Part shown: positions 4,462-49,110 of the stretch, one piece after another
Layout of the letters: the number at the start of each line of letters is the position of its first letter
Numbering within the stretch: position 1 is the first letter of the stretch
DNA from: Arachis hypogaea
Taxonomy: Eukaryota; Streptophyta; Magnoliopsida; Fabales; Fabaceae
Assembly: GCF_003086295.3 (NCBI RefSeq)
Contig: NC_092053.1
Location: forward strand, 82,645,671-82,709,670
Length of the DNA: 64,000 bases
Direction: 5' to 3'
Position numbers and translations under genes: made by a program
Notes under the pieces: model-generated
The model's database searches: none
What the model saw: the letters and a program-made list of their open reading frames with translations, nothing else
Told to the model about the DNA's origin: nothing

Positions 4462-5866
4462 TGATGGTGTGCAGAAATTGGCAAATTAAAAATTGTTAAG
4501 ACATTTACGTTGCAAGTATAGTTCTTAACTTGCCAGAAATCTGCTCCTCAATTTAGAAAGGTGTCACAGAAAATTGAAATTTAAAATACTGGGAGTATGA
4601 ATCCCAGGTCGTCTCCCAACGAGTTGCAGAAAAGTGTGCTATTTTATTAATCAGAGGTTTTCAAAAAGGGTTGAATTGAACAAACAAGAAATTAAATTGG
4701 TGAATTTGAATAATGTAAATAAAAGCCTTGACTGGGAATTGATTAGTTAGAATCCCTATTATTGTTGGAATGCTCTCAGGATTTATTGACAATTGAAGGT
4801 TGTCCTGTTTAGTTATCCTTCACTAGGTAAAGGAAAGTCAAAGGTTCCTTTCAATAGCATATAAAAAGGAACTACTCGCTCAAAGGTTCCTTTCAATTCC
4901 CCATAAAGTTAGGGAACTACTCGCTCATTATGAATGTAAAATTCATAGCATATAAAAAGGAATTAAAGAAAGACATTGTAAATAAAAATTAAAATAGTCA
5001 ATTAAAAATAAAAGTGATCCTTGTATTAAATAATCCTAAGAATATTCCAATGGTAAAATTAACAAAGCAAAGAACATGGAAGAGTAAACCAAGTAAAGAA
5101 AACGAACTAGAATGACGAAGTCTTGATGAGGTAATAACTCTTCTCAGTGTTCCAATGCCAAAAAAGTAAGAGAAATTAAAATCCTAAAAACTATGAATGT
5201 CTAGGGAGAAAACCTAGAGGAGGAGTAAAACTGGATCTAAAAACTAAAACTGTGTAGAATGAATGTTTTCTTTGGTTTCTGCTTGTTCTCTGGCTCTAGT
5301 CTGCTGTTCCGGGCCAAAAACTGGGTCAAAATAGTGCCTGAAATTGCCCCCAGCGAATCTGTAAATTATGCAGATCGCGCACGTCACGCGATCGCGTCGC
5401 TCATGCGGACGCGTCATTCGCGTTTCTGCCTTGCCACGCGGACGCGTCGTCCACGCCTCCGCGTCGCTCGTGCTTTTCCATTTCACGCGGTCGCGTCATC
5501 CATGCGGCCGATTCACTGCGATTTGATCTTCTCCGCGCGGTCGCGTCGTCCATGCGGCCGCGTCGCTTCTCGCTGGTCATCTCCTCAATTTCTTGTGTTC
5601 CTTCCATTTTTGCTAGCTTCCTTTCCAATCTCCAACTCATTCTTGCCCTATAAAGCCTGAAACGCTTAACACACAGATCACAGCATTGAATGGAATGAAG
5701 GAGAAGTAAAATGTATAATTAAAAGTCTCTAGGAAGCAGTTTTCACTCATGTAATAATTTCAGGAAGGAAATATAAATGCATGCTATTTTAATGAATAAG
5801 TGGGTCAGCATCATGATAAAACCACACAATTAAACACAATATAAACCATAAAATAGTGGTTTATCA
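4462..5866 (-). repeat. 3' LTR of family T element
   Basis: Complete LTR of 1405 bp, TG...CA on both strands (plus strand tgatggtgtg...gtttatca). The first 300 bp match 15285-15590 closely. It holds a GC-rich array at about 5370-5575 (motif CGCGATCGCGTCGC, GCGGACGCGTC). A box read on the minus strand as AGACGACCTGGGATTCA (about 4590-4612) recurs near the ends of other LTRs here. Confidence 0.88.
5370..5575. repeat. U3 CpG array of family T
   Basis: Imperfect repeats of a bipartite motif, ACGCGNNCGCGTCG then CATGCGGNCGCGTC, dense in CpG within an AT-rich LTR. The same bipartite motif makes up the internal array at 9343-9880. Confidence 0.8.
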
Positions 5867-5903
5867 ACCTCCCCACATTTAAACATTAGCATGTCCTCAT
5901 GCT
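5867..5903 (-). promoter_or_regulatory. Polypurine tract and hairpin before the 3' LTR
   Basis: Minus strand reads TTTAAATGTGGGGAGGT directly against the LTR start, a plus-strand-priming purine tract. Just upstream lies a 6-bp stem AGCATG/CATGCT (5888-5893 with 5898-5903) closing an AGGA loop. The same pair of elements recurs internally at 7322-7359. Confidence 0.75.
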
Positions 5904-7320
5904 TAATTGAAGGAGATGAAGTAAATAAGTATGAACATGCAGAAACTCATGCAATGCAATGCAATCCTATATATATATGAATGCAACTATATGATTCTTG
6001 TCCACTTGATCAAAAGTAAATAAGTTCTTCAAAACAATTATAATTCAAATTCCACTAATTCAATTCTTAAAAAGTAAGAGCAGATAAAAATGCAAGAGGA
6101 TAGCTCACGAAAGCAGGGAACATAGAAATTCAAGTATGGAACCCTCACTGATGGTGTATGTACACTCTAGTCTCTCTAGTGTATAGGGTAATCACTCTAT
6201 CCTTCTCTAATCATGCTTTCTAACTTTTGTTTTTCTCCTAATCAATCAACAACAATTAACATACCAATGCAAACATCATGAGGTCTTTTCAAGGTTGTAA
6301 TGGGGCTAAGGTAAAGGTAGGGATACATATATGGTCAAGTGAGCTTATAAATTGAATCTTTAATTAACCCAAGCTTCAACCCAACCTATATATTTTACAT
6401 AACTTTAGAATTCATGCCTAGCTACCCAGAGTTCCCCTTTTTACATTTCATACTCATGTATCAACTTTTTATTTTAATTTTTATCATATGTGCATTGATC
6501 CTTGAATTCTTAATTCAGCATTGGGGTAATTTTGTCCCCTTATTTATTTATTGCTTTTTTTTTTACATAAAAATAAACATAGCTTATCAATGCACATAGA
6601 TTTTTAATTCTTATAGTTTCACATGAGTAGGTATCCAAATTCCCATTGTATTATCATGACACATTCCCTTAATAACTTTTGTTCCCACAATTTCCCATAC
6701 TTAACTAGCACACACAATTCTATCTTAAGCTAACCAAAGATTCAATTTGGGATATACAATTATTTTTCCGTTTCAGGCTAGTAATGTGGCGAAATATAGA
6801 ACAAATGGGATTTAAAGGCTCAAAGTGGTTAACAAAGGTAATTGAAAAGGGTAGGCCTAATTTGGATGAGTGAGTTTAAACAAATAATGGCCTCAATCAT
6901 ATGCAAGCATACAAATATAATAAATATTGGACATATAAGATAAAACAAAATATAGATTACAATCATAGAGAAGTAAACACACAAGAATAAAATAGTTATG
7001 GTTAAATAATGTAACCATTCATAAAGGCTCAAATCTCACAGGTTGTGTGTTCTCTAGCTCAAAAATCATGTTCCAAATACAACTTCAAGCAAATTTAACA
7101 TAAAAAAATGTTTTTTTTTTTTTAGGAATTAGTAAAATTTTGTTCTAAAGATAGAGTTTTAGAAGAAGCTTATTGTCTTTTCAATCAAGTAGAGCAAGCA
7201 TGCAACTAACCTATTACTATGCAATTTATCCTATTCTATAAAGGAAAGAAAATCTAACTAAATATCCTAATTTATTGGTGCTAGGGAAGAGAAATTACCT
7301 CCGGAAGTCAGGTACTGACC
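5904..7320 (-). other. Noncoding 3' region of family T element
   Basis: No gene seen. AT-rich stretch between the internal and terminal purine tracts. It aligns in patches with 26725-28430 of the N element (for example around GGTTGTAATGGGGCTA at 6293-6308 and 27122-27137) and with 49790-50722 in the opposite direction. It is therefore a conserved noncoding part of these families. Confidence 0.7.
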
Positions 7321-7321
7321 G

Positions 7322-7359
7322 ACCTCCCCACACTTAAGGCTTTGCACCGTCCTCGGTGC
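7322..7359 (-). promoter_or_regulatory. Internal purine tract with hairpin
   Basis: Minus strand: perfect 6-bp stem GCACCG/CGGTGC (7344-7349 with 7354-7359) around an AGGA loop, followed 8 bases later by TAAGTGTGGGGAGGT (7322-7336). It is a near copy of the module at the 3' LTR (5867-5903), about 1.45 kb upstream of that LTR in element sense. A role like a central polypurine tract is an inference. Confidence 0.65.
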
Positions 7360-7501
7360 CATCTGTCAGGAACAGGGGTAGGCTGGTAGCATTATCTCCA
7401 CATGTGGGACCATCATGGCTCCCTGGGGTGTCTGAGTCCTTGAAGTGTCCCTTGAGTAGCTCCTTGAGGTGTTTGAATCGGTGCTCGTTACGGCGCTCTC
7501 T

Positions 7502-8563
7502 TCACTTTGCTTTCTGTTCTTGCCGATCCAATCTTTTGATTATCTGCTGGAGCAGTTCATCAGTTGTAGGTGCTTGTGGTGTTGAAGAAGGAATATCTTC
7601 AACCAGAGCAGTGGGAAGGCTTGTAGTGGCTGCTGAAAGTCTGAGGTATTTCTCATTAGGGACATACTGATCATCCCGTGGGAGCATGGCTTTGGTGTCT
7701 CCAGCTCTGTAGGAAACTCCGGCTGCTGAGACAAGATCTGAGACCAAGGCAGGAAAAGGTAAGTTGCCCGTGATTTGTATGTGTCCCATGGCATTCCGGA
7801 TATGTCTTGGTAGATTCAGAGGCTGGTCTGTAAGGATGCACCATAGTAGAACGGCCATGTTCACAGTGAAGGAGTACTCGTGAGTGCTCGGAAAGACGTA
7901 ATGGGACATGATTTGTGCCCATACACGAGCCTCCAAGGTAAGTGCTGAAGCCGATATTCCCTTAGGGCGGGTACGATGGTATCCGTAGATCCAACGGCTG
8001 CCAGGTAATGCGATAACTCTGAGAACATCTTCCCAGTCAAATTGGTACTGTTGGCGCTTGAGTGCGGCTTCTTGAAAGGTGTCCATTCCTTCTGGAATAG
8101 GGAAAATACTTAGAGCTTGTCGAATGGCCTCTTCTGTAATGGGTATTTGCTTCTGACGAACAAAGACAGACTGCAGAGTAGGCAGGTAGAAGTTAGAGTA
8201 GAACTCGATTACCCAAGAAAGATTGGCCTGCCGTGGTTATCTCTGTAGGAAACCCCATTGTCTTCGTTCAATTTGCGGCTCTACAAAAGTAGCAATATTG
8301 GGCGGGAGGATAAGAAGGTGTTCGTTGTTGTAACTCCTTTAAGCTAGAATAGGGAACATCTGCTCACAGTAGCGATTTGGAAATCGCGCAGTGTCCTTTG
8401 CTGGAAAGGCTTTCTCCTTTTCATCAACCTTGATAATCCTCTTAACTCGTTTTGTTGAGGGCTTGACTGCAGTTGAAGAAGGCTCTGCCACTAATGCTCT
8501 TTTTGTTCCTCTTCTTGCTGGTTGTTTGGGGGTAGCTTTCTCTTTTCCTTTCTTGGTGGCCAT
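7502..8563 (-). pseudogene. ORF2 in env position (plant transposon protein domain), broken
   Basis: Second ORF of the family T element. ATG at 8561-8563 follows a TTTTCAG|G acceptor-like site. The N-terminus is lysine/arginine-rich (MATKKGKEKATPK, STKRVKRIIK) and looks like a nuclear-localisation or nucleic-acid-binding tail. The body has LEARVWAQIMSHYVFPSTH and IRNAMGHIQITGNLPFP, shared with the N element ORF2 at 28639-29835. I assign both to the 'putative plant transposon protein' family (I believe Pfam PF20167). It ends in a short basic helix (IKRLDRQEQKAK). Two in-frame TAA stops, at 8339-8341 and about 8237, break it; the frame is otherwise continuous. No signal peptide or membrane segment follows this ATG, so a true envelope function is unlikely. 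Biochemical role unknown. Confidence 0.75.
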
Positions 8564-8564
8564 C

Positions 8565-9206
8565 CTGAAAAGGGAAGAGAGAGAGTAAATTAAATTCAAA
8601 GAGATATATAGCAATGAAGAGAACGAAAAATAATGGTTATATATGCACATTAAAAGGTAAATGACGGTAACACATGCTCATGAGTACATGTGAAAGATCA
8701 TTAATGGAAAATAGTTAGTGCATATGATGACAAGTGAATGAAAGGTGTTTATTGGCATGCCGGCAAAGGGCACGAGTAGCATAGACCAAGCATTACTTTG
8801 TAACAAACCATCACATTTGTATTGACAATTAAATTCAACTAATAGAATAGTAAAGGGAATTTGTGAAGAGCAAGCATTGAATATTTAGAATAACATAGAG
8901 AAGTGCATAATGCCATATGGGCTTTTTCACAAATACATAGCATGCAAGGTAAATAAAGTATAGAAATTATTAAAGTGAACATGCAAGCAACCCTTTAAAG
9001 AAAATAATATATAATTGTCAAACAATTTGCAACAATCCACAAGCATATAATGAAGAATAATGACTTAAATAAAATTCTAACACCATGTGAAAAGGAAAAA
9101 AGAAGAAAGAAAGCATGGATAATGAAAAGAAAAAGAAAAGAAAAGAAAATAACATATAAAATAACAAGAATGATAGAAAAGAAAAGAGGGAGGAAGAAAA
9201 TAGAAC
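8565..9206 (-). other. Probable intron upstream of ORF2
   Basis: On the minus strand a donor-like CCAAG|GTTCTA at 9207/9206 and an acceptor-like TTTTCAG at 8565-8567 bracket 642 AT-rich bases. Splicing would leave the ORF2 ATG one base into the second exon. Two N-type elements show the same layout (29837-30859, 54372-55674). Not proven by transcripts. Confidence 0.5.
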
Positions 9207-9342
9207 CTTGGTAATGGAGGTGAGAGAGATAGAGTGAAAAGTGGGATAAAAGGAAGAAGGGGGAAGGAAGAAATAAGGCGGGAAAGGAAAAATTAGGATT
9301 TGGAGAAGAGGAAGATAAGATATTTTGGCAATTTAGGTTGAG

Positions 9343-9880
9343 CTGTGCGGCGCATGCGACGCGGCCGCGTGGGCACGCGTTCGCGTGAATGCGCTTTAAG
9401 TAAGGTGACGCGGTCGCATCGGTCACGTGATCGCGTGACCCATGTTATGCTTCTGGCGCGAGTGCAACCTCGCACCTGCACAACTCTCTGTTCAAATTAA
9501 TTTATTTGCCAAAATTGGGGTGACGCGATCGCGTCGGTCATGCGATCGCGTGAGTGGGCTTCAGAAAAGGAATGACGCAGACGCGTCGGCGACGCGGTCG
9601 CGTGATAAGGATTGTGCGTCCAACACCAATCCAGCACCACTCTCGCACAATATTTTGTTGTGCACCCTTTTTACGTCGAAAATCAGGGCACGCGGCCACG
9701 TGGGTCACGCGGTCGCGTGGGAGGTTATTATTTCCAGGTGACGCGGACGCGTGGGGCATGCGTCCGCGTGGGTAAAATTGTGCCGTTGGCACGCCTCCAG
9801 CCACGCTCCAGCGTGACTCTCTGTTCGTTTTTATTTTTCTCCCCTCTCCATGCGACGTGGACGCGTCGCTGATGCGGTCG
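9343..9880. repeat. Internal CpG array between pol and ORF2 (family T)
   Basis: Repeated ACGCG(G/A)(T/A)CGCGT units with CATGCGATCGCGTG partners, dense in CpG, in otherwise AT-rich DNA. The motif equals that of the family's U3 array (5370-5575). In element sense it lies after the pol hairpin and before the CT-rich leader of ORF2. A poly-T run and an (ATGCAG)n tract follow at about 9894-9935. Confidence 0.8.
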
Positions 9881-10005
9881 CATCGTGTGGCACTTTTTTT
9901 TTTTTTTAAAATGCAGATGCAGATGCAGATGCACGAAAGTACTGATAAAGAGAAGTGTTATTGAATATGAAAAACTAAAAATAAAGAAAAGAACGATCAT
10001 ACCAT

Positions 10006-10066: not shown

Positions 10067-12364
10067 TCAATCTTCTGCTATGTGGGGGTCTTCCAAGAGG
10101 AAGATCTCAAGCTCCTTATTCTTCTGTATCTTCTCGTCATGGTATAGCTTCAAACGGTGTCCATTAACTTTGATAAGTTCAGAGTGTGAAGGATGACTTA
10201 GGTGATAAACTCTGTACGATCCGGCCTTCTCTACTCTGTATGGACCTTCCCATCTTGATCTCAATTTGCTTGGCATGAGCCTCAGTCGAGATTTGTAAAG
10301 GAGGACTAAATCCCCAGGCTGGAACTCCTTTTTTTTGATGTTCTGATCATGTATAGCCTTCATCTTCTCCTTGTATAGTTTTGAGTTCTCATAAGCTTTT
10401 AGGTGAAGGCTTTCCAGTTCTTGCAGTTGCAACTTCCTTTCAGCTCCGGCTTTCCCAATTTCCATGTTGCACTCCTTGACTGCCCAAAAGGCTTTGTGCT
10501 CTACTTCAACTGGAAGATGACAAGCTTTTCCATAAACTAAGCAGAAAGGACTCGTCCCAATGGGTGTTTTATATGCTGTTCTATATGCCCAGAGTGCATC
10601 TTGTAGCCTGGTGCTCTAGTCTTTTCTATGAGGTTTGACTATCTTCTGCAAGATACGCTTTATTTCTCTGTTTGACACCTCGGCTTGCCCATTGGTCTGA
10701 GGATGGTATGCTGTTGCAACCTTATGAATTATCCCATGCTTCTTCATTAATCTTGTTAGTCTCCTGTTACAAAAATGGGTGTCTTGATCGCTCACGATTG
10801 CTCGTGGTGATCCAAAGCGACAAATAATATGGTTTCTCACAAAGGAAACAACAGTGTTAGCATCATTAGTGCGGGTAGGAATTGCTTCCACCCACTTGGA
10901 AACGTAATCCACAGCTAACAATATATAAAAATATCCATTAGAATTTGGAAATGGACCCATGAAGTCAATGCCCCAAACATCAAAAATTTCAGAGAAAAGC
11001 ATAGTTTGTTGAGGCATCTCATCCCTCTTGGATATATTACCAAATTTTTGGCATGGGGGGCAAGATTTACAAAATTCAGCAGCGTCTCTAAAAAGAGTAG
11101 GCCACCAGAATCCATAGTCCAAGATTTTTCTAGCAGTTCTTTGAGGGCCAAAATGCCCTCCACTCTCAGATGAGTGACAGGCCTCTAAAATAGACTGGAA
11201 TTCTGATTGAGACACACAACGTCTAATTACCTGATCAGCGCCACATCTCCATAAATATGGGTCATCCCATATATAATATTTAGACTCGCTTTTCAGCTTG
11301 TCTCTGTGATGCATAGAAAAGTTTGGAGGAAATGTGTGGCTAACTAGATAATTAGCTACAGGTGCATACCAAGGGGATACTTTAGATACTGCTTGCAAGT
11401 TATCAAAAGGAAAATTATCATCTATAGGAGTAGAATCATCCTTAATGTGCTCGAGGCAACTCAAATGGTCTGCTACTAAATCCTGGTTACCACTCCTATC
11501 CTTTATTTCTAAATCAAATTCTTGTAATAGCAGTATCCAACGTATAAGTCTTGGTTTGGACTCATTTTTAGCTAATAGATACTTTAAAGCTGCATGGTCC
11601 GAATACACTACTACTCTAGTACCAAGTAAATAAGCTCAGAATTTATCCAGAGCAAAAACAATAGCGAGAAGCTCTTTCTCAGTAGTAGTATAATTGGACT
11701 GGGCAGTGTCTAAAGTCTTAGACGCATAAACAATAACAAAAGGATCCTTACCTTCGCATTGAGCCAGCGCTGCTCCTACTGCAAGGTTGGAAGCATCGCA
11801 CATGATTTCAAATGGCTGGCTCCAGTCTGGTCCTCTCACAATTGGAGCTCGAGTCAGGGCAGTTTTCAGCTTATCAAACGCTTCTTTACAATTCTCACTG
11901 AACTTGAACTCGATATCCTTCTGCAGTAATCTGGATAAGGGAAGTGCTACCTTACTAAAGTCCTTAATAAATCTCCTGTAAAAACCTGCATGGCCAAGGA
12001 ACGAACGGACTTCCCTCACAGAAGAGGGGTAAGGTAAACTAGAAATAACATTCACCTTTGCTGGGTCTACAGAAATGCCATCATTAGATACCACATGACC
12101 TAATACAATCCCTTATTTTACCATAAAATGACATTTTTCAAAATTCAATACAAGGTTTGTATTAACACATCTATCTAATACTCTAGATAATCCATCTAAG
12201 CAAAGGCTAAAAGAATCACCATAAATGCTAAAATCATCCATAAAAACCTCCATACAGTCCTCAATAAGATCAGGGAAAGACTCATCATATACTTTTGGAA
12301 AGTAGCTGGTGCATTGCACAAGCCAAAAGGCATTCTCTTGTAAGCATAAGTCCCAAAAGGACAT
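10067..12364 (-). pseudogene. pol, part 2: RT C-terminus, RNase H, integrase (broken)
   Basis: One continuous minus-strand frame with three in-frame stops (12113-12115, 11636-11638, 10616-10618). The RT catalytic box is FMDD at 12233-12244. RNase H shows the catalytic aspartate in EIMCDAS (codon near 11797), glutamate in TTEKELLA (near 11680) and aspartate in YSDHAAL (near 11599). Integrase shows the zinc-binding region ([11 protein letters not shown] ... CPPC) and the DDE residues in GIDF, VSDQ and GQAEV, with 35 residues between the second D and E. The C-terminus has the GDLVLL...WEGPYRV module. Stops are consistent with C-to-T or G-to-A changes. The upstream part lies in another frame (next entry), so polyprotein synthesis is impossible. 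No chromodomain was seen, as expected for Athila. Confidence 0.9.
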
Positions 12365-13761
12365 GTAAAAGTGGTTTTTTCCTGATCCTCAGGAGCTGTA
12401 TGAATCTGGAAATAACCTGTGTAACCATCTAAAAAGTAATAATGTGATTTACCTGACAGGCGATCCAGCGTTTGATCAATAAATGGGAGTGGGTAGTGAT
12501 CCTTACGGGTAGCTTGGTTGAGACGCCTGTAATCAATGCAGACTCTCCAAGTATTCTGAACTCTAGTTGCTATGAGCTCTCCATGCTCATTCTTCACTGT
12601 AGTGACTCCAGACTTCTTGGGCACCACTTGTACTGGGCTAACCCATTCACTCTCTGAAATGGGATAGATGATATCTGCTTCTAGTAGTCTAGTCACTTCC
12701 TTTTTTACAACTTCCAAGATAGTGGGATTCAATCTCCTTTGGGGTTGATGGACAGGTCTTGCTCCCTTTTCTAAAAATATTCTATGCTCACATACTTGAG
12801 GGTTGATGCCTACTATATCTGCCAAACTCCACCCAATTGCCTTCTTGTGCCTCCTCAGTACATCAAGTAACTGCTCTTCCTGTTGAGAAGTGAGTTCCCT
12901 TGCAATGATAACGGGGAACTTCTGTTCATCTTCAAGATAAGCATATTTGAGATGTGGAGGAAGAGGTTTCAGTTCCAACTTCTGATCATGGGTCGGCTCT
13001 GGATTGTCTGGAGCTTGTGAAAATGCTGAGGTACCCTCATTGTCAGTCATGAGGGTCCCCACACTTGGACCTTGTCCAGTGTGCCTCTCTTCGAACACTT
13101 CCTTGTGAACTTCAGCTACAGTTTCATCTATGACATCACACTGGAAGATAGAATGATCTTCTGGAGGGTTGTTTATGACTCCATTCAGATTGAAGATTAC
13201 TATGCGGCCATCTATTTCAAAAGAGTATGTTCCTGAAAAAGCATCCAATTTGAATTTTGATGTCTTCAGGAATGGTCTTCCAAGTAGGATTGATGATGGC
13301 TTATCTGAGTCATTATGGGGCATCTCCAAGATATAAAAATCAGTGGGAAATGTAAGCCCTTTAATGTTCACCAAAACATCTTCAGCAACTCCAGCCACTG
13401 TAATAATGCGTTTATCTGCTAACGCAAAACAAGCTGCCGACCTTTTTAAGGGAGGGAGCCTCAAAATATCATATATGGACAAAGGCATTATACTTACACA
13501 TGCTCCTAAATCACATATTCAATCATAAATTACTACTCCACCAATGGTACAACTAACTATACAAGGACCTGGGTCACTACACTTTTCAGGTAATCCTCCC
13601 ATTAAAGCAGATATGGAACTACCTAAAAGAATAGTTTCTAATTCATGAATTTTGTCTTTATGTATACATAACTCTTTTAGAAACTTTGCATATTTAGGTA
13701 CTTGTTGAATAACATCAAAAAGAGGAACGGTTACCTCAACCTTTTTGAATATTTCTACCAT
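12196..13761 (-). pseudogene. pol, part 1: aspartic protease and RT N-terminus (broken)
   Basis: Minus-strand frame with the protease active-site motif CDLGACVS just upstream of the MPLSIYDILRL segment (about 13488) and the ILLGRPFL motif. The RT fingers and palm follow: SEWVSPVQVVPKK, WRVCIDYRRLNQ, YYFLDGYTGYFQI (catalytic D near 12428) and YKRMPFGLCNAPATFQ. One in-frame stop (13519-13521) precedes the protease site. At about 12290 the frame shifts before the FMDD box, which lies in the next frame. Upstream the frame stays open into an acidic linker (about 13760-13955) joining gag to protease. The order protease, RT, RNase H, integrase is that of Ty3/gypsy elements. Confidence 0.88.
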
Positions 13762-15279: not shown

Positions 15280-15284
15280 AAAAT

Positions 15285-15600
15285 TGATGGTGTGCAGAAA
15301 TTGGCAAATTAAAAATTGTTAAGACATTTACGTTGCAAGTATAGTTCTTAACATGCCATAAATCTGCTCCTCAATTTAGAAAGGTGTCACAGAAAATTGA
15401 AATTTAAAATACTGGGAGTATGAATCCCAGGTCGCCTCCCAACGAGTTACAGAAAAGTGTGCTATATTATTAATCAGAGGTTTTCAAAAACGGTTGAATT
15501 AAGCAAACAGGAAATTAAATTGGTGAATTTGAATAATGTAAATAAAAGCCTTGACTGGGAATTGATTAGTTGGAATCCCTATTAAATTGGTGTGCTCTGC
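15285..15600 (-). repeat. 5' LTR of family T element, truncated
   Basis: About 300 bp nearly identical to the start of the 3' LTR at 4462. Similarity stops near 15585-15600, replaced by unrelated GC-rich repeat DNA. More than 1 kb of this LTR is missing, so the element's right target duplication cannot be read. Confidence 0.8.
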
Positions 15601-17188
15601 ATACAATTCGACCCACGTGTACACGTCTCAGACGCGTGCGCGTCATTTTGCAACTTAGGAAATCCACGTGTATGCATCAAGCACGCACACGCGTGGATAA
15701 GACAATCGGCGTAAATGGGTTTTGACCCGAGAGTTGTGCTGTCCTCACACTGGAACTGTGCTAGAAGCACAAAATCATCCCTCGCATACGCGTCCCTAAC
15801 GCGTGTGCGTCATTTCGATTTCATACCACCCACACTTACGCGTGGGCGATACTTACGCGTCGGACGGCCAACTCAGTTTTCACACGTACGCGAGATGCAC
15901 GCGTACGCGTCGCGTCCCATTTTTAAATTCTTACTTCATACTTCCCTCTTTTCATCTTCCTCATCAGTTTTTTTTCTTCTCTCTCCTTTACTCTCTCATC
16001 CTTCATTTAATTATTGCATTTAATTATTGTAAGTATAGTACTAACAGAATGAGTTGGCCATCAATCAAATTAGAAACTCACAAGATGTGTCACAATTAAA
16101 AACTAATTCAAAACCGAGAGTATTTGACTGCCGAGTCATCTCCCAATGAGTACTTTAGAATAATGAGTGTGCAAATCCAGTTGTAGTGATCAAGGGGTTG
16201 TCAATGAGGAAATGAACATATAAAACAATAAAAGAACATGCAAAATTGTAATGATTGAACTAAGGAAGAAATTAAAGAACCGACTATGTAATATAAACAA
16301 GTAAAGTATAAAAGAGATTAACATAGAAGTGTATGAAAGATTAAAAGCATCAAAAAGAGTCTTGGCTTGGAGTGGGCTAGGGGTCCTTTCCTTGTTGGAA
16401 CCACAACTATGACAACTATGATGGATTAATCTCACTTGATCAACCCTCACATCGGAAAGTAAGTTAAATGAGCATAAGTGTTCTCAACTCACAAATTCTA
16501 AATTGCTTGCTAATTGCTTTAGCAACAAATTAGCGTTAGTGTGAACAAGAACAATTACCAATCCAAGAATTGAAACTAAATGTTGGACATTCCAACTCTA
16601 GAAACCCAATTGCTCACTTTACCCAAGCCAAGAACAAAAAATTTAGCCTAAAACCATGTTTGACATTTTGTCAAACACTTGGTGGGCAAAAAATCTTAAA
16701 CATGGAGAAAATGAAAAAAAGCTTGAAACTAAAAGCAACAATTGATCTCAATCAATAAGAATAACACAAGAAAGCATGAAACAAACATCAAGCATCAAAT
16801 TCAAGAACGAGAAATTAAAATTGCAAAAGAGAAGTAAAATTGAACTATAACTTGAATTACAAGAAAGAGCAATGACAATGTAACTATAAAGAGTAATAAC
16901 AAGAGAATACTTACAATAAAAGCTAGCAAAATCCAAGATCGAAAATGGAAATGGCACTTGAATGTAAAACCATAATTGAAACCCTAATAGAGATGATGAA
17001 AAACTTAGAGAAAAACTAACTAAAAGCTTCCTACCATTACTCCTAAACTATACTAATGATATGCTATGTTATGTCCCTCATTTCCCCTCCAATATGAGCT
17101 AGAAGACTTCAGAAATGAGCCTCCAAAGCCCCCAAATCGCGAGTCACGTGATCTTTTAATGAAGCCATGTGTGGACACTTGTGCAGAC
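15601..17188. other. Diverged retroelement fragments, no gene
   Basis: 15601-15920 is a GC-rich array (ACGCGTGNGCGTC, TACGCGT motifs) followed by a pyrimidine-rich stretch to about 16020, like the array plus leader at 48720-49330 (+). From about 16020 to 17188 the sequence resembles the minus-strand end of an N-like LTR. It has the box GAGTATTTGACTGCCGAGTC near 16118 and ATTTTGTCAAACACTTGGTGGG near 16665, which is also present at 25751 and 34781. No intact coding region seen. Confidence 0.6.
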
Positions 17189-19520: not shown

Positions 19521-19525
19521 CTGGG

Positions 19526-21163
19526 TGATGAGTGGATAATTTATTCGCTTTTTGGCATTGTTTTTACATAGTTTTCAGTATGATTTAGTTAGTTTTTAGT
19601 ATATTTTTATAAGTTTTTAATTAAAAATCACATTTTTGGACTTTACTATGAATTTTTGTGTTTTTCTATAAATTCAGGTATTTTCTGGCTGAAATTGAGG
19701 GACCTGAGCAAAAATCAGATTCAGGGGTTGAAGAAGGACTGCAGATGCTGTTGGATTTTGACCTCCCTGCACTCAAAGTGTATTTTCTAGAGCTACAGAA
19801 CTCCAAATAGCGCGCTTTTAATTGCGTTGGAAAGTGGACATCTAGGGCTTTCCAGCAATATATAATTGTCCATACTTTGCCCGAGTATAGACGATGCAAA
19901 CGGGCATTGAACGCCAGTTCCATGTTGTAGTCTGGCGTTCAGCGCCAGAAACAAGTTGCAAAGTGCAGTTCAACGCCAAAAACACGTTACAAACTGGCGT
20001 TCAACTCCAAGAAAGACCTCTCCACATGTAAACTTCAAGCTCAGCCCAAGCACACACCAAGTGGGCCCCGGAAGTGGATTTCTGCATCATTTACTCATTT
20101 CTGTAAACCCTAGTAACTAGTTTAGTATAAATAGGACTTTTTACTATCTTTGTAGGAGATCTTTGATTAGTTTTATGATATCTTAGACCTTTAGGGGGGG
20201 CTGGCCATTCGGCCATGCCTGAACCTTCATCACTTATGTATTTTCAACGGTAGAGTTTCTACACACCATAGATTAAGGTGTGGAGCTCTGCTGTTCCTCA
20301 TGAATTAATACAAAGTACTACTATTTTTCTATTCAATTCAACTTATTCTGCTTCTAAGATATTCATTCACACTTCAACATGAACGTGATGATCATCACAC
20401 TCATCATCATTCCCTATGAACGTGTGCCTGACAACCACTTTCGTTCTACCTTCGATTGAATAAGTATCTCTTGGATTTCTTAATCAGAATCTTCGTGGTA
20501 TAAGTCAGAATCCATGGACGGCCATTCTTGAGATCGGGAAAGTCTAAACCTTGTCTGTGGTATTCTGAGTAGGATCCGAGAAGGGATGGTTGTGACGAAT
20601 TTCAAACTCGCGAGTGCTGGGTGTAGTGACAGACGCAAAAGGAGGGTGAATCCTATTCCAGTATGATCGAGAACCTCCAGATGATTAGCCATGCAGTGAC
20701 AGCGCATCGGACCATTTTCACAGAGAGGATGGGAAGTAGCCATTGACAACGGTGATGCCCTACACAAAGCTTGCCATAGAAAGGAGTAAGATTGATTGGA
20801 TGAAGACAGCAGGAAAGTAGAGGTTCAGAGGAACGAAAGCATCTCTATACGCTTATCTGAAATTCTCACCAATGAATTACATAAGTACCACTATCCTATT
20901 TTATATTTTATTTATCTTTTACTTGTCAATTCATAAAATCAGATGAATCCGCCTGACTGAGATTTACAAGGTGACCATAGCTTGCTTCAAGCCGACAATC
21001 TCCGTGGGATCGACCCTTACTCACGTAAGGTTTATTACTTGGACGACCCAGTGCACTTGCTGGTTAGTTGTACGAAGTTGTGAAACAAAATTAAGAATAT
21101 GAACGTGCGTATGAAGTTTTTAGCGCCGTTACCAAGGAAGTAAAGATCACGATTTCACACACA
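19526..21163 (+). repeat. 5' LTR of family B element
   Basis: 1638 bp, TGATGAGTGG...CACACA, aligned end to end with 38703-40332. U3 array of TGGCGTTNAACGCCAG motifs at about 19896-20005, TATA box (tataaata) at 20126-20133. A GTGGGATCGACCCTTACTCACGTAAGG box lies near 21003-21029. Confidence 0.92.
20126..20133 (+). promoter_or_regulatory. TATA box of family B 5' LTR
   Basis: TATAAATA, about 120 bp downstream of the U3 dyad array; the same octamer is at 39303-39310 in the 3' LTR. Assigned from sequence and position only. Confidence 0.6.
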
Positions 21164-22758: not shown

Positions 22759-25068
22759 ATGAGCAGGAACAAGGAAAAGGGCATTCTTGTTGAAGCTGAT
22801 CCAGAACCTGGAAGGACTCTAAAGAGAAAACTAAGAGAAGCTAAATTACAACAATCCAGAGACAACCTTACTGAAATTTTCGAACAAGAAAAGGAGATGG
22901 CAGACGCACCTAACAACAATAATGCAAGGAGGATGTTTGGTGATTATACTACACCTACTTCCAAGTTTGATGGAAGAAGCATCTCAATCCCCACCATTGG
23001 AGCAAACAATTTTGAGCTGAAACCTCAATTAGTTGCTCTAATGCAACAGAACTGCAAATTCTATGGACTTCCATCAGAAGATCCCTACTAGTTTTTAACT
23101 GAGTTCTTACAGATCTGTGAGACTGTTAAGACTAATGGAGTAGATCCTGAAGTCTACAGGCTCATGCTTTACCCTTTTGCTGTAAGAGACAGAGCTAGAA
23201 CATGGTTGGACTCACAACCTAAAGATAGCCTGAACTCTTGGGATAAGCTGGTCACGGCCTTCTTGGCTAAGTTTTTTCCTCCTCAAAAGCTGAGCAAGCT
23301 TAGAGTGGATGTTCAAACCTTCAGACAAAAAGAAGGAGAATCCCTCTATGAAGCTTGGGAGAGATACAAGGAACTGACCAAAAAGTGTCCTTCTGACATG
23401 CTTTGAGAATGGACCATCCTGGATATATTCTATGATAGTCTGTCTAAGTTATCAAAGATGTCACCGGACCATTCTGCAGGTGGATCCATCCACCTAAATA
23501 AAATGCCTGCAGAAGCTCAAGAACTCATTGACATGGTTGCAAATAACCAGTTCATGTACACTTCTGAAAGGAATCCTGTGAATAATGGGACGCCTATGAG
23601 GAAGGGAGTTCTTAAAATTGATACTCTGAATGCCATATTGGCTCAGAATAAAATATTGACTCAGCAAGTCAATATGATCTCTCAGAGTCTGAATGGATTG
23701 AAGGAATCATCCAACAGTACTAAAGAGGCATCTTCTGAAGAAGAAGCTTATGATCCTGAGAACCCTGCAATAGCAGAGGTGAATTACATGGGTGATTCCT
23801 ATGGAAACACCTATAATCCCTCATGTAGAAATCATCCAAATTTCTCATGGAAGGATCAACAAAAGCCTCAACAAGGCTTTAATAATAGTGGAAGAAACAG
23901 GTTTAACAATAGTAAACCTTTTCCATCATCCACTCAGCAACAGACAGAGAATTCTGAGCAGAATCCATCTAGCTTAGCAAATTTAGTCTCTGATCTATCT
24001 AAGGCCACTGTGAGTTTCATGAAGGAAACAAGGTCTTCCATTAGAAATTTGGAAGCACAAGTGGGCCAGCTGAGTAAAAGGGTCACTGAAACTCCTCCTA
24101 GTACTCTCCCAAGAAATACAGAAGAAAACCCAAAAGGAGAGTGCAAGGCCATTGAATTGACCATCATGGCCGAACCTACAAGGGAGGGAGAGGACGTGAA
24201 TCCCAGTGAGGAAAACCTCCTAGGACGTCCAGTGATCAACAAGGAGTTTCCCTCTGAGGAACCAAAGGACTCTAAGGCTCATCTAGAGACCATAGAGATT
24301 CCAATGAACCTCCTTATGCCCTTCATGAGCTCTGATGAGTATTCTTCTTCTGAAGAGAATGAGGATGTTACTGAAGAGCAAGTTGCCAAATACCTTGGTG
24401 CAATCATGAAGCTAAATGCCAAATTATGTGGTAATGAGACTTGAGAAGATGAACCTCCCTTGCTCATCAATGAACTGAGTGATCTAGATCAACTGACATT
24501 ACCTCAGAAGAAACAAGATCCTGGAAAGTTCTTAATACCTTGTACCATAGGCACCATGACCTTTGAGAAGGCTCTATGTGACCTTGGGTCAGGGATAAAC
24601 CTCATACCACTCTCTGTAACGGAGAAATTGGGAATCCTTGAGGTATAGCCTGCCAATTTCTCATTAGAGATGGCAGACAAATCTATGAAAATGGCTTATG
24701 GACTAGTAGAGGACGTGTTAGTAAAGGTTGAAGGCCTTTACATCCCTGCTGATTTCATAATCCTGGACACTGGGAAGGAAGAGGATGAATCCATCATCCT
24801 TGGAAGACCCTTCCTAGCCACAGCAAGAGCTGTGATTGATGTAGACAGAGGAGAATTGATCCTTCAACTAAATGAGGAAAACCTTGTGTTTAAAACTCAA
24901 GAATCTCCTTCTGTAACAATGGAGAGGAAGCATAGAAAGCTTCTCTCAGTACAGAGTCAAATAAAGCCCCCAGAGTCAAACTCTAAGTTTGGCGTTGGGA
25001 GGCCTCAGCCAAACTCTAAGTTTGGTGTTGAACTCCCATATCCAAACTCTAAGTTTGGTGTTGGGAGT
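22759..25068 (+). pseudogene. gag-protease of family B element
   Basis: A single reading frame from ATG 22759, with no frameshift but four in-frame stops (23089, 23404, 24442, 24646). The gag core has FELKPQL, FYGLPSEDPY, RARTWLDSQP and ESLYEAWE, then YGNTYNPSCRNHPNFSW. Next comes a glutamate-rich linker and an aspartic protease with active site [15 protein letters not shown] (about 24570-24615) and ILGRPFLATARAVID. The C-terminus is three or four tandem NSKFGVG repeats. RT would normally follow but is absent. The N element inserted after the AGT codon at 25066; before that the frame ended two codons later (CTA, TAA at 35710-35715). At least two stops fit single C-to-T or G-to-A changes. Confidence 0.88.
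24976..25066 (+). repeat. Tandem hairpin repeats coding NSKFGVG
   Basis: Three copies of CAAACTCTAAGTTTGG(C/T)GTTG. In two of them CCAAACT and AGTTTGG form a perfect 7-bp stem around CTA (25010-25026, 25042-25058). They encode the repeated NSKFGVG tail of gag-protease. The AAGTTTGGTGTTG part closely matches the bases just before the 3' LTR (38690-38702). Confidence 0.75.
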
Positions 25069-26687
25069 TGATGATCGGCCTTTTGATGGTCTAGAATTTC
25101 ACAAATAGAAACTCATTGCAAGGTATAGTTTCTAAACCAACAATAGTCCTCTCATGCAAAAATTTGTGGTGTTGTCACGATTAACAATCCCCAATAAAAA
25201 GTTACCGAAGTATTTGGACTCCGGGTCGTCTCCCTAGGAATCAATGGAGTGCATGTGTATTGGCTATGGAGGGGAAAAAGGGGTTTTGATTGGTTGGTGA
25301 TCGGACAAGGAATTTAAACGTGCAAGAAAAGTAAATCAAGCAAACAATTTAAAGAAACAATTAAAGAAAAGAGACATTCATGGCATTGAATTGAGGTCAT
25401 AGGCTCTCTATCCTAGTCATGCAATGATTAATTCGCCTTGTTTAGTTAACTCACACATCGGGAGAATGTCAAACGAAACCAATTAATCATGTTACCATTA
25501 CAAACAAGAATTTATCTCATTACGTCATCTCTAACAATTAGGGAGAAAGTCTAACGAGACTAGCTAATCCCAATCCAAAAGTCCTAACCAACTTACTAAT
25601 CAAATTAGTAAAAGATTAGCGTTAATGGAAATAGTACTAGCTAACAACTCTAGATTACCAACATAGGTTGGGTTTGCATGACTCAAGATTGCCTAATTAG
25701 TCTCTCCAAGCCAAGAATGCTCAAAATCTACTCTAAAGCCCAACCAAGCATTTTGTCAAACACTTGGTGGGTGGTAAAGAAGAGCTTAGTAAAAGTGCAA
25801 TAAAAGTAATTCTACCAACTATCAATTGCAAGAAATATAAAAACTCACCACTCAATCATCAATGAAAAGAAACATTAACATCAAATTGCATTAAAAGAAA
25901 TTCAAAGTCAACATGAGTGCATGAATGTAAAAGAGAGCATGAAAGTAAAATTGACATTACAAACTGAGAGCATGAAAGTGTAGAAGTAAGAGATCATAGA
26001 AGAATTAAGATAAAAGCAAGGAATTAAACATGGAATTGAAATAACCTAACCTAATCCTAACCTAATCTAGAGAGAAGAGGGAGCTTCTCTCTCTAGAAAC
26101 TAACCTACATGATGCTATACCTACAACTAATTGCTTCTCCCTTGCTTGGACTTCAATTCTACATGAAATACACTCAGAAACAACTTGAAATTGGGCCTGG
26201 GCAGCTTAGAAATCACCCCCAACATTTTGCCATTAAGTGGGCCAAGTAAGAGTATCGGCGCGCGCGCGCCATGCGCGCGTGCGCGTCGCTGGCAAATTCC
26301 TAATCTGCGTGGAAGCGGTATGTGCGTGTGCGCGTCCTCTGAGAAACCACTTTTGCGCTTGCGCGCCTTGTACGCGTGCGCGTCCATTGGTGCATTTCAA
26401 CTCTTTGTTTCTTCATGCATTCTCCTCTTTGCATGCTTTTCTCCTTATTCCTTCCATCCAATACTTGCCTTATGATCCTGAAATTACTTAACAAACACAT
26501 CAAGGCATCGAATGGAATTAAGGTGGATCTAAAATCACCAAATTAGGGCCTAAAAGCATGTTTTTACATTTAAGCACAATTCAAAGGAGAATTACGAAAC
26601 CATGCTATTTCATTGAATAAATGTGGGAAAAGGTGAATAAATCCCCCAAAATAAGCACAAAATAATCCACGAAATCGGGGATTATCA
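25069..26687 (-). repeat. 3' LTR of family N element
   Basis: 1619 bp. U3 CG array at about 26255-26385 (GCGCGTGCGCG class). The box TTTGGACTCCGGGTCGTCTCCC (25214-25235 on the plus strand) is the conserved LTR-end box seen in other families. No convincing TATA box found. Confidence 0.92.
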
Positions 26688-28638: not shown

Positions 28639-29835
28639 CTACTGTATCGGCCCCTCATTATGCTCCTCCTCCGGATCCTGCTCGTCGGAGGCGGAAGACT
28701 CTGGGAGTGGAGGAAGCTCGATACCCTGTGATGTAAACACCTGATCTATGCGGTCAAGACGTCGCATGACACGACGCTCGAAGCGCTCCATGAAGCGAAG
28801 AAGGTGCTGCACTAACAGATAGGTCGGCTCAGGTGCCGGTGGCGGTGCAGGTGCTGCTGTGGAAGAAGAGGGTATAGCTGCCTCGACTGCCACCCTAGCT
28901 CGAGAACGGCGGCTAGTCGGGGGCTTCTCGTGCACCCATACACCCCAGGAAATAGTAACTTCCTTGTCATCGTCATCTGGAGGTGGTGGTGTCACGTCAT
29001 TGTCCTCCCACGGGACATCAGCTAGCTCAGCTAAGCTAGTAACCAGTGTCGGGAACGGTAACAAGCCGCGAATATGAGCTCTCCACATGCTATGCCTAAT
29101 CAGTCGGGGAAAATATACCTCCTTCCCCTCCATGACACACCCAATCAAGACTAGCATATCCATCGGAATCTCTGAAAAGTGAGTGGTAGGGAAGACATAG
29201 TGGGCAAATATTTGTTGCCAAGTCCTAGCCTCCCTAGTCAGATATGCAAATAGCATGCCCTTGGGCTTTGTGTTGCTCGAATCTATCACCCAGGAAGCAT
29301 CTGGTGTAGCGATCACGCGCCTAAGTGCCTCATAGTCAAAAGTCATGGAGAGGAGAGCTACCTCTGCCTGTTGGTAGGCACAAGTCTCAGGAGTACCAAC
29401 TCTGCAGAGCAGTGCATCCTGTAAGGCATCCTCAGTGATCATAATCTCTCTACCCCTCAAGTATACTGAATCCAAGTTTTGTCGGAAGAAGTTACAGTAA
29501 AATTTCTTGACCCACGAGATGTTAATCCGTCCCAAGTCCCTATCGACGAAATCCAAGCCCAGCTCAGAAATACGGGCGTTTATGGCATGCCTCACATCAT
29601 TGGGAAGATTCAGCTTCTTCTCAATGTTCAGCTTTGTTTTTGCATAACGAGAAAGGCGTAGTTCGCAGTAGAGGTTCGAAAACTTGGTTGGATCAGTGGA
29701 TGGAAGTAACTGATTTTCTTTCTCCTCATCATTCAGCGGATTCTTAGCATAGTTAGCATATGGTGAGGGTGTAGAGGTCTTGGAGCGCTTCCTCTTTTTG
29801 GAAGCAGTGGCTATAGCCTTTCCTTTATCCGACAT
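28639..29835 (-). CDS. ORF2, intact 398-residue plant transposon protein domain
   Basis: The only long intact ORF in the window. ATG 29833-29835 directly follows a TTTTCAG|G acceptor-like site; the same frame is open 18 codons further upstream, but that stretch looks like the pyrimidine-rich intron end. The N-terminus carries a KKRKRSK nuclear-localisation-like motif. The body (about residues 50-275) has FSNLYCELRLSRYAK, WVKKFYCNFFRQNL and REARTWQQIFAHYVFP. I assign it to the putative plant transposon protein family (I believe PF20167). A Pro/Asp/Ala-rich linker follows, then a basic amphipathic helix (FMERFERRVMRRLDRI) and an acidic tail. No signal peptide or membrane segment follows the ATG. 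Relatives lie at 7502-8563, 36427-37546 and 54122-54370. Function unknown; a nuclear, oligomeric DNA-associated protein is my inference. Confidence 0.82.
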   Translation of the reverse strand: MSDKGKAIATASKKRKRSKTSTPSPYANYAKNPLNDEEKENQLLPSTDPTKFSNLYCELRLSRYAKTKLNIEKKLNLPNDVRHAINARISELGLDFVDRDLGRINISWVKKFYCNFFRQNLDSVYLRGREIMITEDALQDALLCRVGTPETCAYQQAEVALLSMTFDYEALRRVIATPDASWVIDSSNTKPKGMLFAYLTREARTWQQIFAHYVFPTTHFSEIPMDMLVLIGCVMEGKEVYFPRLIRHSMWRAHIRGLLPFPTLVTSLAELADVPWEDNDVTPPPPDDDDKEVTISWGVWVHEKPPTSRRSRARVAVEAAIPSSSTAAPAPPPAPEPTYLLVQHLLRFMERFERRVMRRLDRIDQVFTSQGIELPPLPESSASDEQDPEEEHNEGPIQ

Positions 29836-31196: not shown

Positions 31197-31700
31197 GTGC
31201 GCGAATGCGCTAGGGCTCGCGTCTCTGGGGTAAGTGAAAATTCGAATCCACGCGCGTGCGCACTGTGCGCGTTCGCGTGGGTGGAGGGAATGGAAGAACG
31301 GCGCGGAAGCGCCATGCGCGCATGCGCATATATGAACGAATCGGGATGGGCTCGGACGCGCAAGGTGCGCGTCGGCACGGATGTGCTGGGCTGAAGGCAT
31401 AAAAGGGGCCCAGAGTTGGCACAACTCTCGGGTCCTTTGGCTTAGAGGATGCTAAGACGCATCGATGCGCGAGCGCACTGTGCGCGTTCGCGTGGGTGGC
31501 TTGAGCTTATTAAATGGGCGCGGAGGCGTGAAGTATGCCAACGCGTGGACAGCGAAACAGAGAGGGGTGCGGACGCGTACAGTGTGCGTTCGCATGAGTT
31601 GAGGCACAGAGTTGGCCCAAAAGTGGCACAACTCTCTGGTTTTTGGCCCAGGAAACTAAAATACGCAGCCGACGCGCGCGCGCACTTTGCGCTTGCGGGT
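31197..31700. repeat. Internal CG array of N element
   Basis: Repeated GCGCGTGCGCACTGTGCGCGTTCGCG-class motifs in five or six blocks, separated by short segments such as ACAGAGTTGGCCCAAAAGTGG. It is the same motif class as the N LTR array (26255-26385, 35285-35402). A poly-T run follows at 31716-31727. Confidence 0.8.
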
Positions 31701-32072: not shown

Positions 32073-33941
32073 TCAAGGTGGCTTATGCTTGTATCCATCC
32101 TTGAACCTCCAAAAGTGCATGTCCTTCAATCGGTTGTCAAGAGTTCCAACCTTCTTCATTAAGCTTTGGTGAGGTTCTTTCCAAGACGTGAGCTCCCAAG
32201 AAAGATTATCATAGGATACTCCAGGATCCCATATCTTGTCCTCGCACCCATCTTCTAGTTGATTATCTTGACTCTGTCCGGGCAACGAGAAAACAGAATT
32301 CTCATGGAAGCACCAAACAACTCTCCTAGACCCATTTAGTTTAGCATTACACCAATCCACGCTCTCTAGTTTTGAGCTTCCCACCATAATAAGCCTAGAT
32401 TTAGAACGCCAACCACTAAACATCCTCCTTTTCCTCTTGATTCCACAAAGCACCCTAAGTTGGCCATCCGTTTCAAGCAAACCGTACTCAAGTGGGATAA
32501 CACAGCTACGAGTTAGAAGTTTTACCCACGAAAATGGAGGATTGGATGACGAACTAGGTAGAGGAATTCCCAAAGATCGTGATAAAGCATGCTCTACTCC
32601 CGTCCATCCTCTTCTAGAGGCTTCCACCACTTGGTGAGGTTCTTCAAGTTCTTCCTCATGCCAAGCTTCCTCAAGTTCACATTCTTTTTCACCAATTTCT
32701 TCTATTTCTTCCCCATCACTCTCATCGTAGATAGGAGGTCTAGTGAAGTCTACCTCATCATCAAGTCTAAGCAATTTGGGGAAGGACTCTTCAAACTCAA
32801 AAGGATCATATGTTGATTCGGAATCATCATAGGTAGGAGAGTCTGTTGCTTGGAATACTTCTTCCAGTTCTTCATTCGCACTAGGCCTTGGAGGTTGCAC
32901 GTCCTCCTCAACCTTGCTTTCCAATGTACTGGAGGAGGGTTCAACAGGGTCGTCAAGGGAATTGATCAAGGTGGGCAAAAAATCACTAGTGATGGAATCT
33001 ACTTCTCGATCAATTTCTTTTAACTCATTGTCTACTCCCGCAACATTGCTCTTCTCTTTGACATTCCCTCTACACTCCTTGGAAGAGGGTTCCTCAACTT
33101 GAGATTCCTCTATGTACTCAACATATCCTAAACATCCATCCACTACTTCCTTTTGTTCGCTAGTCTCTATCTTCTCCTTTTATTGCACTTCTTGACTCAA
33201 TTCCTCTTCCTCACCATGGAGTTCCATGTTTATATCCTCACTAAGCTCCTTGGTCATTTCTCCACATCCAACGATGGAAGTATTTATGGTGCATGAGCTT
33301 AGGTGAGATGTTAGGTGACTCACAGCTTCTACGATGCCGGCCACCCTTACTCGTAACTCCTTGAACTTGGTTTCATCTTCCTTTTGGCATCTTAGAATAC
33401 GAGATTCAAGGTCTCTCAGTTCTAACATGAAGGCTTCGTCAGGAGGCGGTGTTGGAAGAAAAAGTTCATCGGTTAAGGAAAGGTTGTTGAAATCGGAAGG
33501 TGGTTCATATTGGTGGAGTTCTTGAGGTGGTGTATGCGGAATTTGTGGTTCTTGAGAGTATTGGTATTGGGATGGTGGTTGTTCTACATGTGATTCTAAT
33601 GGTGGTTGGTATGGTGCGTATGAGTCATGGTCATGTGGAGGTGAATGATGGTATGATGCTTGTGAGTATGAGGTGTGGTTATGTTGAGGATATGGCTCAT
33701 AGGCATATGGTGGTGGTTCTTGGAAATCACAAAGAAATTCACCATAGCTAGTGGATTGATATGCATCATAGAATGGCTCCTCTTCATAGTGCATTGGTGG
33801 AGGTTGTTGCCATGGAGGTTGATCAAGTGTCTGAGGCTCCTCCCACTTTTGTTCTCCAATTCCTTGGTGCACATCCTCATTGAAGCTTTCATCTCCTACA
33901 ACATAGTTTGAACTACACTCATAGCCAAAGTGAGAATTCAT
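32073..33941 (-). pseudogene. ORF1 of N element (unrecognised protein in gag position), one stop
   Basis: A frame of about 620 codons starting MNSHFGYECSSNYVVG at ATG 33939-33941, broken only by TAA 33180-33182; the relative at 57890 has CAA-type glutamine there. Layout: a Pro/Tyr/Gln-rich low-complexity N-terminus (residues about 30-160), a coiled-coil-like stretch (LRDLESRILRCQKEDETKF), a long glutamate-rich region, then a conserved C-terminal part with WVKLL...PLEYGLLETDGQLR, GWRSKSR and KIWDPG, ending YKHKPP. It sits where gag should be, right after the primer site, but shows no gag core, zinc knuckle or enzyme motif. Relatives are at 43948-45254, 46997-48510 and 56823-58658. I do not recognise the family. 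A role in packaging or hijacking a partner's gag would be a guess. Confidence 0.7.
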
Positions 33942-34077
33942 AGTGAAGTGGAAAGTAAAAACAAAGAGCAGTAAGAAATGAAGAAGACTAAATCCTAATA
34001 CTAGCAATAATCAACAAGTAAACCCAAGATAAAGCTATTCACAATATTTACAATAGCCAATAACATAGCACCATTGT

Positions 34078-34095: not shown

Positions 34096-34098
34096 TTT

Positions 34099-35940: not shown

Positions 35941-36195
35941 TTACTGGCATTTAAACGCCAGTAAGGAGCATTTGGCTGGCGTTCAATGCCAGAACAGAGC
36001 ATGGATCTGGTGTTGAACGCCAGAAACAAGCAACATCCTGGTGTTCAAACGCCAGGAATGCACCCTGAGAAGAGCTGGCGTTCAACGCTAGAAACAAGCA
36101 TAGAACTGGCGTTCAACGCCAGAAACATGCTGCATCTGGGCGTTGAACGCCCAGAACAAGCATCAATTCAGCGTTTAAACGCCAGAATTGCATGC
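35941..36195. repeat. Internal array TGGCGTTNAACGCCAG, family B
   Basis: About ten copies of the dyad CTGGCGTTNAACGCCAG at spacing of about 20-30 bases, upstream of ORF2. Same motif as the U3 arrays of the B LTRs (19896-20005, 39075-39185). Confidence 0.88.
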
Positions 36196-38664: not shown

Positions 38665-38702
38665 GTTGCTTGGGGACAAGCAACAATTTAAGTTTGATGT
38701 TG
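38665..38702 (+). promoter_or_regulatory. Pre-LTR hairpin of family B
   Basis: GTTGCTTG-GGGA-CAAGCAAC (38665-38684) is a perfect 8-bp stem with a tetraloop. It is followed by AATTTAAGTTTGATGTTG, which abuts the LTR. Its position matches the hairpin plus purine tract of families T and N, though this tract is not strictly purine. Confidence 0.65.
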
Positions 38703-48719: not shown

Positions 48720-49110
48720 AAGCGAGCACGCGATGCGACCGCATCAGCGACGTGCCCGCGTTGCCAGGAGATGGCAGACAATATTAATATGAACAGAGAG
48801 TTTCGCAGGAGCAGCGCTGGAGGCGTGCCAATGGCACAAATCACCCCACGCGACCGCGTCATATGGGAATAATGGCCTCCTACGCGACCGCGTCACCCAC
48901 GCGATCGCATGCCCCACGCGACCGCGTCACCCTGGATTTTGGCAATACTAAGTTTTGAACAGAGAGTTGTGCGACCGCGAGGCTACACTCGCGCCACTAG
49001 CACAAATCGAGTGACGGGATCGCATGCCCCACACGTCCGGGTCACCCAACCTTATCGCGCACCACGCGACCGCGTCACCCACGCGACCACGTCGCCAGCG
49101 TCGCACAACC
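48720..49110. repeat. Internal CpG array of T-like element
   Basis: Repeats of CACGCGACCGCGTCACCC and ACGCGATCGCATG, the same motif class as its LTR array (45685-45745) and as the family T arrays (5370-5575, 9343-9880). Followed by a CT-rich leader-like stretch to about 49330. Confidence 0.8.

Follow-up and report, generated by a model that had tools for sequence, protein, structure and literature searches.

Family-matched dyad arrays in U3 and upstream of the PF20167 open reading frame of peanut Athila-type retrotransposons, and a possible VANC-like role for its product

The window studied here, meaning the whole 64,000-nt stretch from Arachis hypogaea, was shown by self-comparison to be a nest of long terminal repeat (LTR) elements, and the genome searched for further copies comprises 2.557 Gb. 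Three of these elements, called here T, N and B, each carry an open reading frame (ORF2) of the Pfam family PF20167 ('Transposase_32'), intact in N only, together with arrays of short dyad motifs located both in the U3 part of the LTR and upstream of ORF2. N is nested within B, and the window also holds a second N-type element with both arrays (N2) and a T-like element. The features are listed below, the arrays having been located by motif match.

4462..5866, minus strand: T 3' LTR, ends approximate (4462-4776 is 95% identical to 15285-15598)
5370..5575, minus strand: T U3 array of ACGCGNNCGCGT, dyads paired at 17 bp, one pair per about 50 bp
7505..8564, minus strand: frame-broken T ORF2 with an open piece at 7505-8236 (PF20167, E 2e-30; acceptor TTTTCAG adjoins the ATG)
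9343..9890, minus strand: T internal array, between pol and ORF2 (also by alignment of copies)
10619..13518, minus strand: T pol remnants, namely reverse transcriptase (RT), RNase H and integrase in Ty3 order (Pfam)
15600..15912, plus strand: orphan internal-type array next to the T 5' LTR, which is truncated
19525..21162, plus strand: B 5' LTR (94% identical to 38702-40330)
19896..20010, plus strand: B U3 array of the 5' LTR (also by tandem period)
25068..26687, minus strand: N 3' LTR (97.6% identical to 34098-35704)
26255..26390, minus strand: N U3 array of the 3' LTR
28642..29835, minus strand: N ORF2, intact, 398 residues (PF20167; modelled residues 72-287 resemble VANC21)
31197..31700, minus strand: N internal array
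32076..34010, minus strand: two N ORFs in the place of gag-pol, with no assigned function (no Pfam match at 0.01)
34098..35704, minus strand: N 5' LTR (97.6% pair with 25068-26687)
35285..35405, minus strand: N U3 array of the 5' LTR
35941..36195, plus strand: B internal array of TGGCGTTNAACGCCA, 31 bp period (also by tandem period)
36427..37546, plus strand: B ORF2, frame broken once (PF20167 matched in two parts)
38702..40330, plus strand: B 3' LTR (94% pair with 19525-21162)
39073..39191, plus strand: B U3 array of the 3' LTR (also by tandem period), TATA box about 115 bp downstream
45685..45745, plus strand: T-like U3 dyad pair
48720..49110, plus strand: T-like internal array, ORF2 not found
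56000..56450, minus strand: N2 internal array
62020..62165, minus strand: N2 U3 array, 49 bp steps

The arrays were found where the original prediction had placed them, at numbers far above those of shuffled sequence. When both strands of the window were searched, ACGCGNNCGCGT with at most one mismatch gave 42 matches (0.06 expected from shuffles), TGGCGTTNAACGCCAG with at most two mismatches gave 25 (0.03 expected) and GCGCGTGCGCG with at most one gave 24 (0.02 expected), an excess of several hundred-fold that led us to reject a chance origin. Many of the units are perfect dyads, and the density of CpG reaches 106-199 per kb in the arrays of T, T-like, N and N2 and 47-61 in those of B, compared with 19.9 in the window. 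In seven T copies the dyads are mostly 17 bp apart in pairs, with 32-35 bp between pairs; the internal array has additional gaps, 96-98 bp long, and some copies deviate (steps of 50, 115, 52/45 and 11/41) through missing or extra sites. The U3 arrays of N and N2 are built of 17-bp pairs in 49-bp steps, and a 31-bp period is found in B at both its U3 and internal sites. An interspersed signature close to ACAACTCTC / GAGAGTTGTG stands between the dyad groups at 9343-9890, 31197-31700, 48720-49110 and 56000-56450; it occurs in T- and N-type internal arrays and was not seen in the U3 arrays inspected.

The U3 and internal arrays of each family resemble each other. Their 7-mer cosine was 40 in T, 33 and 30 in N, 23 in N2 and 51 and 54 in B, between-family values being at most 14, and the T-like U3 scored 18 with its own internal array and 21 with that of T. 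With genome copies included, the best internal match belonged to the own family for all 15 U3 arrays, often in another copy; these arrays are not independent, and the comparison leaves out L062 and other U3 regions for which no internal array was available. The motifs had been predicted to match within families and to differ between them: the match within families held, and the B motif is indeed unrelated to the others, but T and N are not distinct, as the T pattern also hits N arrays. ORF2 clade and array motif go together as expected, although on three ORF2 clades only.

This resemblance could also have arisen without function, if the arrays spread through replication slippage and if the reverse transcriptase switched templates between U3 and the internal region. 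When the dyads were masked and 5-mers compared, an own-family excess was absent from the N spacers, modest in those of T (23 and 21 against 13-14) and clear in those of B (26 and 31 against at most 14). Copying between sites is thus likely in B and possible in T, and the variable number of units between array copies fits slippage. In N, however, the dyads match between sites and the spacers do not, so that copying of a whole U3 into the internal region was rejected there as the sole cause. We conclude from the spacers that the dyad is what the two sites have in common in N and, for the most part, in T, whereas in B copying contributed too. The recurrence of the 17-bp pair geometry in 7/7 T copies also speaks against slippage, as does the better conservation of the dyad CpGs relative to other CpGs of the same arrays, and as a full explanation we regard it as rather improbable.

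To measure this conservation, the internal arrays of seven T copies (identity to the window copy 76-87%) were aligned, the dyad columns being taken from one copy and the divergence from the other six. Divergence was 0.107-0.131 in dyad columns and 0.161-0.202 elsewhere. The observed value was reached by 0 to 4 of about 620 circular shifts of the mask for four reference copies, by 19/619 and 21/599 for two others, and by 78/549 for the window copy; as the T copies are related, these comparisons are not independent trials. CpGs were retained in 83-87% of the comparisons inside dyads and in 51-76% outside. As methylated CpG decays fast, this better retention points to selection or to protection against methylation.

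The position of the arrays is that of promoter elements. In the B 3' LTR a TATA box lies 115 bp after the array, and in another B copy (L014) one lies between the internal array and ORF2; none was found at that place in the window B copy, and none was matched in the U3 of T and N. A splice-acceptor-like AG stands directly before the ORF2 ATG in N and in 7/7 T copies (CAG in six, TAG in L059); 6/7 T copies have a donor-like site 643-665 bp upstream, and the public protein P0001 reads like a leader joined to the N ATG at that acceptor position. These signals put the internal array, upstream of spliced-leader signals in T and N or of a TATA box in one B copy, at the place expected for the putative promoter of a spliced ORF2 mRNA. 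The arrays had been described as just upstream of ORF2; the order is right, and the actual distance is about 0.2 kb in B, 0.8 kb in T and 1.4 kb in N.

Such a position bears on two further explanations. Palindromic arrays might act as RNA or DNA structure, with hairpins feeding small RNAs or aiding RNA packaging, instead of as protein sites. The many perfect dyads would suit this, but they are short, with tiny loops, and lie upstream of promoter-type signals, and a U3 array upstream of the TATA box would lie beyond the point where the genomic RNA starts; we consider this explanation very improbable. The main rival is that the arrays are enhancer boxes for a host transcription factor, duplicated beside the internal promoter to co-express an ORF2 of different role. 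A CGCG-box binder such as CAMTA is an example of such a factor, and symmetric sites fit dimeric plant factors. A single factor would sit oddly with motifs that vary among families in one genome, those of B being unrelated to those of T and N, and the ORF2 models match a sequence-specific DNA-binding protein of a transposon, all of which makes the host-factor explanation unlikely in our opinion.

That protein is VANC21. For structure models of two distantly related ORF2s (N and B), VANC21 with DNA was by far the top solved match, and the modelled core superposes on the VANC21-DNA structure (PDB 9lnj). In Foldseek searches, VANC21 was at rank 1 for the B model; for the N model nothing was found below E 0.96 and VANC21 was not listed, and against viral models nothing was found at E 0.001. 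The sequence searches did not show this tie: PF20167 was matched by 37/37 A2 members and the VANC domains (DUF1985/DUF287) by 0/37 at E 1, and VANC21 was not among the matches of ORF2 profile searches of PDB sequences. Those searches gave weak matches only, including Max coiled coils to the C-terminal helix of the B protein (E 0.06). ORF2 would probably dimerise through its C-terminal helix. An envelope role for ORF2 was rejected for lack of a supporting match (no transmembrane prediction was run). The N ORF2 is contained in an Arachis hypogaea protein with 100% identity. B-type ORF2 relatives (P0141, P0143, P0145, P0147, P0150 and P0158) occur on ENA records of 0.8-1.6 kb, three of which represent 43-44 sequences; the records may be transcripts, which would show expression.

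The paired and family-matched arrays, their promoter-type position, the constraint on the dyads and the VANC21-like predicted fold form the observed basis for considering somewhat probable that the PF20167 ORF2 of peanut Athila-type Ty3 elements is a VANC-like binder of the dyad arrays of its own family, keeping both promoters unmethylated and active. From this basis we infer dimerisation, binding, the internal promoter, and anti-silencing or activation. A dimeric, family-specific ORF2 would bind its own dyads at both promoters, the U3 array sitting upstream of the LTR promoter that would drive genomic RNA and the internal array upstream of the putative internal promoter and leader from which ORF2 would be expressed, and its binding would keep both free of methylation in a self-reinforcing loop. 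To this extent the proposal of a family-specific factor in the original prediction was supported in part; array binding and relief of silencing are its predicted features.

Genome-wide, a first look gave 71,409 PF20167 candidates, of which 150 were scored. Among N ORF2 candidates (104 of 59,415 scored), 97/104 were full or nearly full length with 85-100% identity; about 59 of these 97 have no stop, and 93 lie on contigs C11-C20. A 25-mer of the N array had 17 exact matches in the genome and its reversed control 0. Twelve of the 17 lie 1.2-1.8 kb upstream of ten scored N ORF2s in the right orientation, two of the 17 being the window's own by construction, so that 10/15 remain without them; the other five have no listed ORF2 nearby among the candidates scored. 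All six T elements fetched carry an ORF2 84-87% identical to P0104 with an internal array upstream and a U3 array downstream (for L020 in L062), but these six were picked from seven pairs of U3 matches spaced by some 11.3-11.4 kb and are hence complete by choice. In a second B element ORF2 is reduced to remnants and both arrays appear to be present, and at a third B locus an internal array accompanies an ORF2 frame that is open over 377 codons. In a B-related locus (L031), degenerate B-like dyads are found downstream, in the presumed U3, and no B-type dyad was found in the available sequence upstream of ORF2.

Several observations weigh against ORF2 as a binder of its own arrays, among them the window's own share of the 25-mer matches, the choice of complete T copies and the T spacer excess; a host factor could also explain paired promoter arrays. 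ORF2 was matched in two frames in 2/6 complete T copies, and four of five B models were poor. A T ORF2 was found in 1/20 regions around T U3 matches (L020); some of these regions may represent solo LTRs or 5' LTRs, and in L024 and L027 a second array is present and ORF2 was not matched. In 30 loci with the best Pfam scores for ORF2, only distantly related to those of T, N and B, no recurrent dyad array was found within 1.4 kb of the domain, the exceptions being a satellite at L058 and, at three loci, a weak repeat of TGCATGCATGCA; such negatives of the array detector are weak, since two of the five internal arrays already known, those of T-like and N2, escaped it and an N-type array would lie beyond its flank of 1.4 kb. 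The L058 satellite is of the 20-bp AACCCTAGAAAATCCTAGAA type and lies beside a PF20167 locus near a contig end (C16:6214-6780), possibly subtelomeric.

In T, RVT_1 is matched in 12199-13518 and integrase in 10619-11635 on the minus strand, so that RT precedes integrase as in Ty3 elements, and a sense PF20167 ORF lies downstream of pol as expected for the Athila lineage. An array between pol and ORF2 was seen in T only: N has there its two Pfam-less ORFs, and the B copy has less than 1 kb between a gag-like ORF (23407-24441) and the array, the nested N insertion excluded. ORF2 and the arrays therefore persist where pol was not found. The ORFs at 32076-34010 are proline-rich and acidic and similar by translation across N, N2 and T-like, with no Pfam match in N and T-like (the N2 ORFs were outside the scan). 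The T-like element repeats the pattern with both of its arrays, as had been claimed, but has no recognisable ORF2; its ORFs of at least 150 residues have no Pfam match, and alignments leave about 0.7 kb at the ORF2 region, compared with 2 kb in T. The T U3 is visible in the 3' LTR only, because the 5' LTR is truncated at about 15598; a sequence near this LTR (about 15262-15282) is what we take to be like a primer-binding site. The array that adjoins the truncated LTR (15600-15912) bears a GAGAGTTGTGC signature and marks a junction of two elements. The similarity of N2 to the N ORF2 region ends at about 54124, and a 72-bp tandem array of 4.7 copies on the dyad GCCAACGTTAGC...GCTAACGTTGGC, a similar-looking motif, adjoins N2 (53401-53735). 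Immediately after the B 3' LTR lies a 63-bp tandem array of 3.6 copies with GGCGTGGCACGCC dyads (40333-40560).

VANC proteins of Arabidopsis VANDAL (Mutator-like) transposons are anti-silencing factors (PMC5735166; PMC10398659). As in peanut, the protein is encoded by the element, the short motifs are family-specific and form tandem arrays in noncoding regions, and motifs and proteins vary by family (PMC5735166); the predicted ORF2 core would also share the DNA-bound fold of VANC21. The peanut elements are Ty3/Athila LTR retrotransposons, as seen from the LTR pairs of N and B and from the RT and integrase domains of T, whereas VANDALs are DNA transposons. Their motifs are palindromes, CpG-rich in T and N, in contrast to the YAGTATTAY-like motifs of VANDALs, and ORF2 belongs to one Pfam family, PF20167, unlike VANC with DUF1985/DUF287 (PMC5735166), no homology at the sequence level having been found.

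The paired layout of boxes in U3 and before an extra ORF is already known from another superfamily, a parallel that the original prediction did not draw. In Sireviruses (Ty1/copia, Bousios et al. 2010), palindromic, CpG-rich, element-specific boxes precede the TATA box in U3 and also lie upstream of an env-like gene, 77/79 linker copies lying upstream of that gene, and four box-bearing elements without the gene also lack linker copies (PMC2829016). Some peanut elements, unlike these, retain the internal array without ORF2. The order in copia is integrase before RT, opposite to that in T. In the available part of that report the ORF is not tied to a DNA-binding protein, and stress-related host factors are proposed for the boxes (PMC2829016), which favours the host-factor explanation here. 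The foamy virus Tas is likewise a single element-encoded factor acting at LTR and internal promoters, but the protein and host are unrelated and activation by ORF2 is only proposed in peanut. Retand TRP28 differs in its antisense ORF, its PF04195 domain and the lack of matched U3 arrays in the account available (PMC11963269). The sunflower Athila ORF(+) shares PF20167 and is present in an active Athila element, its available description including neither arrays nor a DNA-binding role (PMC11728184). In a literature search with subscription journals mostly outside it, no report was found of matched dyad arrays in Athila-type elements or of a VANC-like fold or other structural tie to VANC for PF20167.

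Athila-type elements carry an extra ORF that has been compared to env, and a 2026 paper leaves to further study whether proteins encoded by Athila influence its methylation (PMC12844716). On the most far-reaching reading, which we consider somewhat less probable than not, their 'env-like' ORF would encode a factor for anti-silencing or activation, and Athila-type elements may run their own anti-silencing switch. Should ORF2 prove to be VANC-like, self-encoded anti-silencing would extend beyond Mutator-like transposons, and it could help to explain the abundance of these elements, with their 71,409 first-look PF20167 candidates, in the peanut genome.

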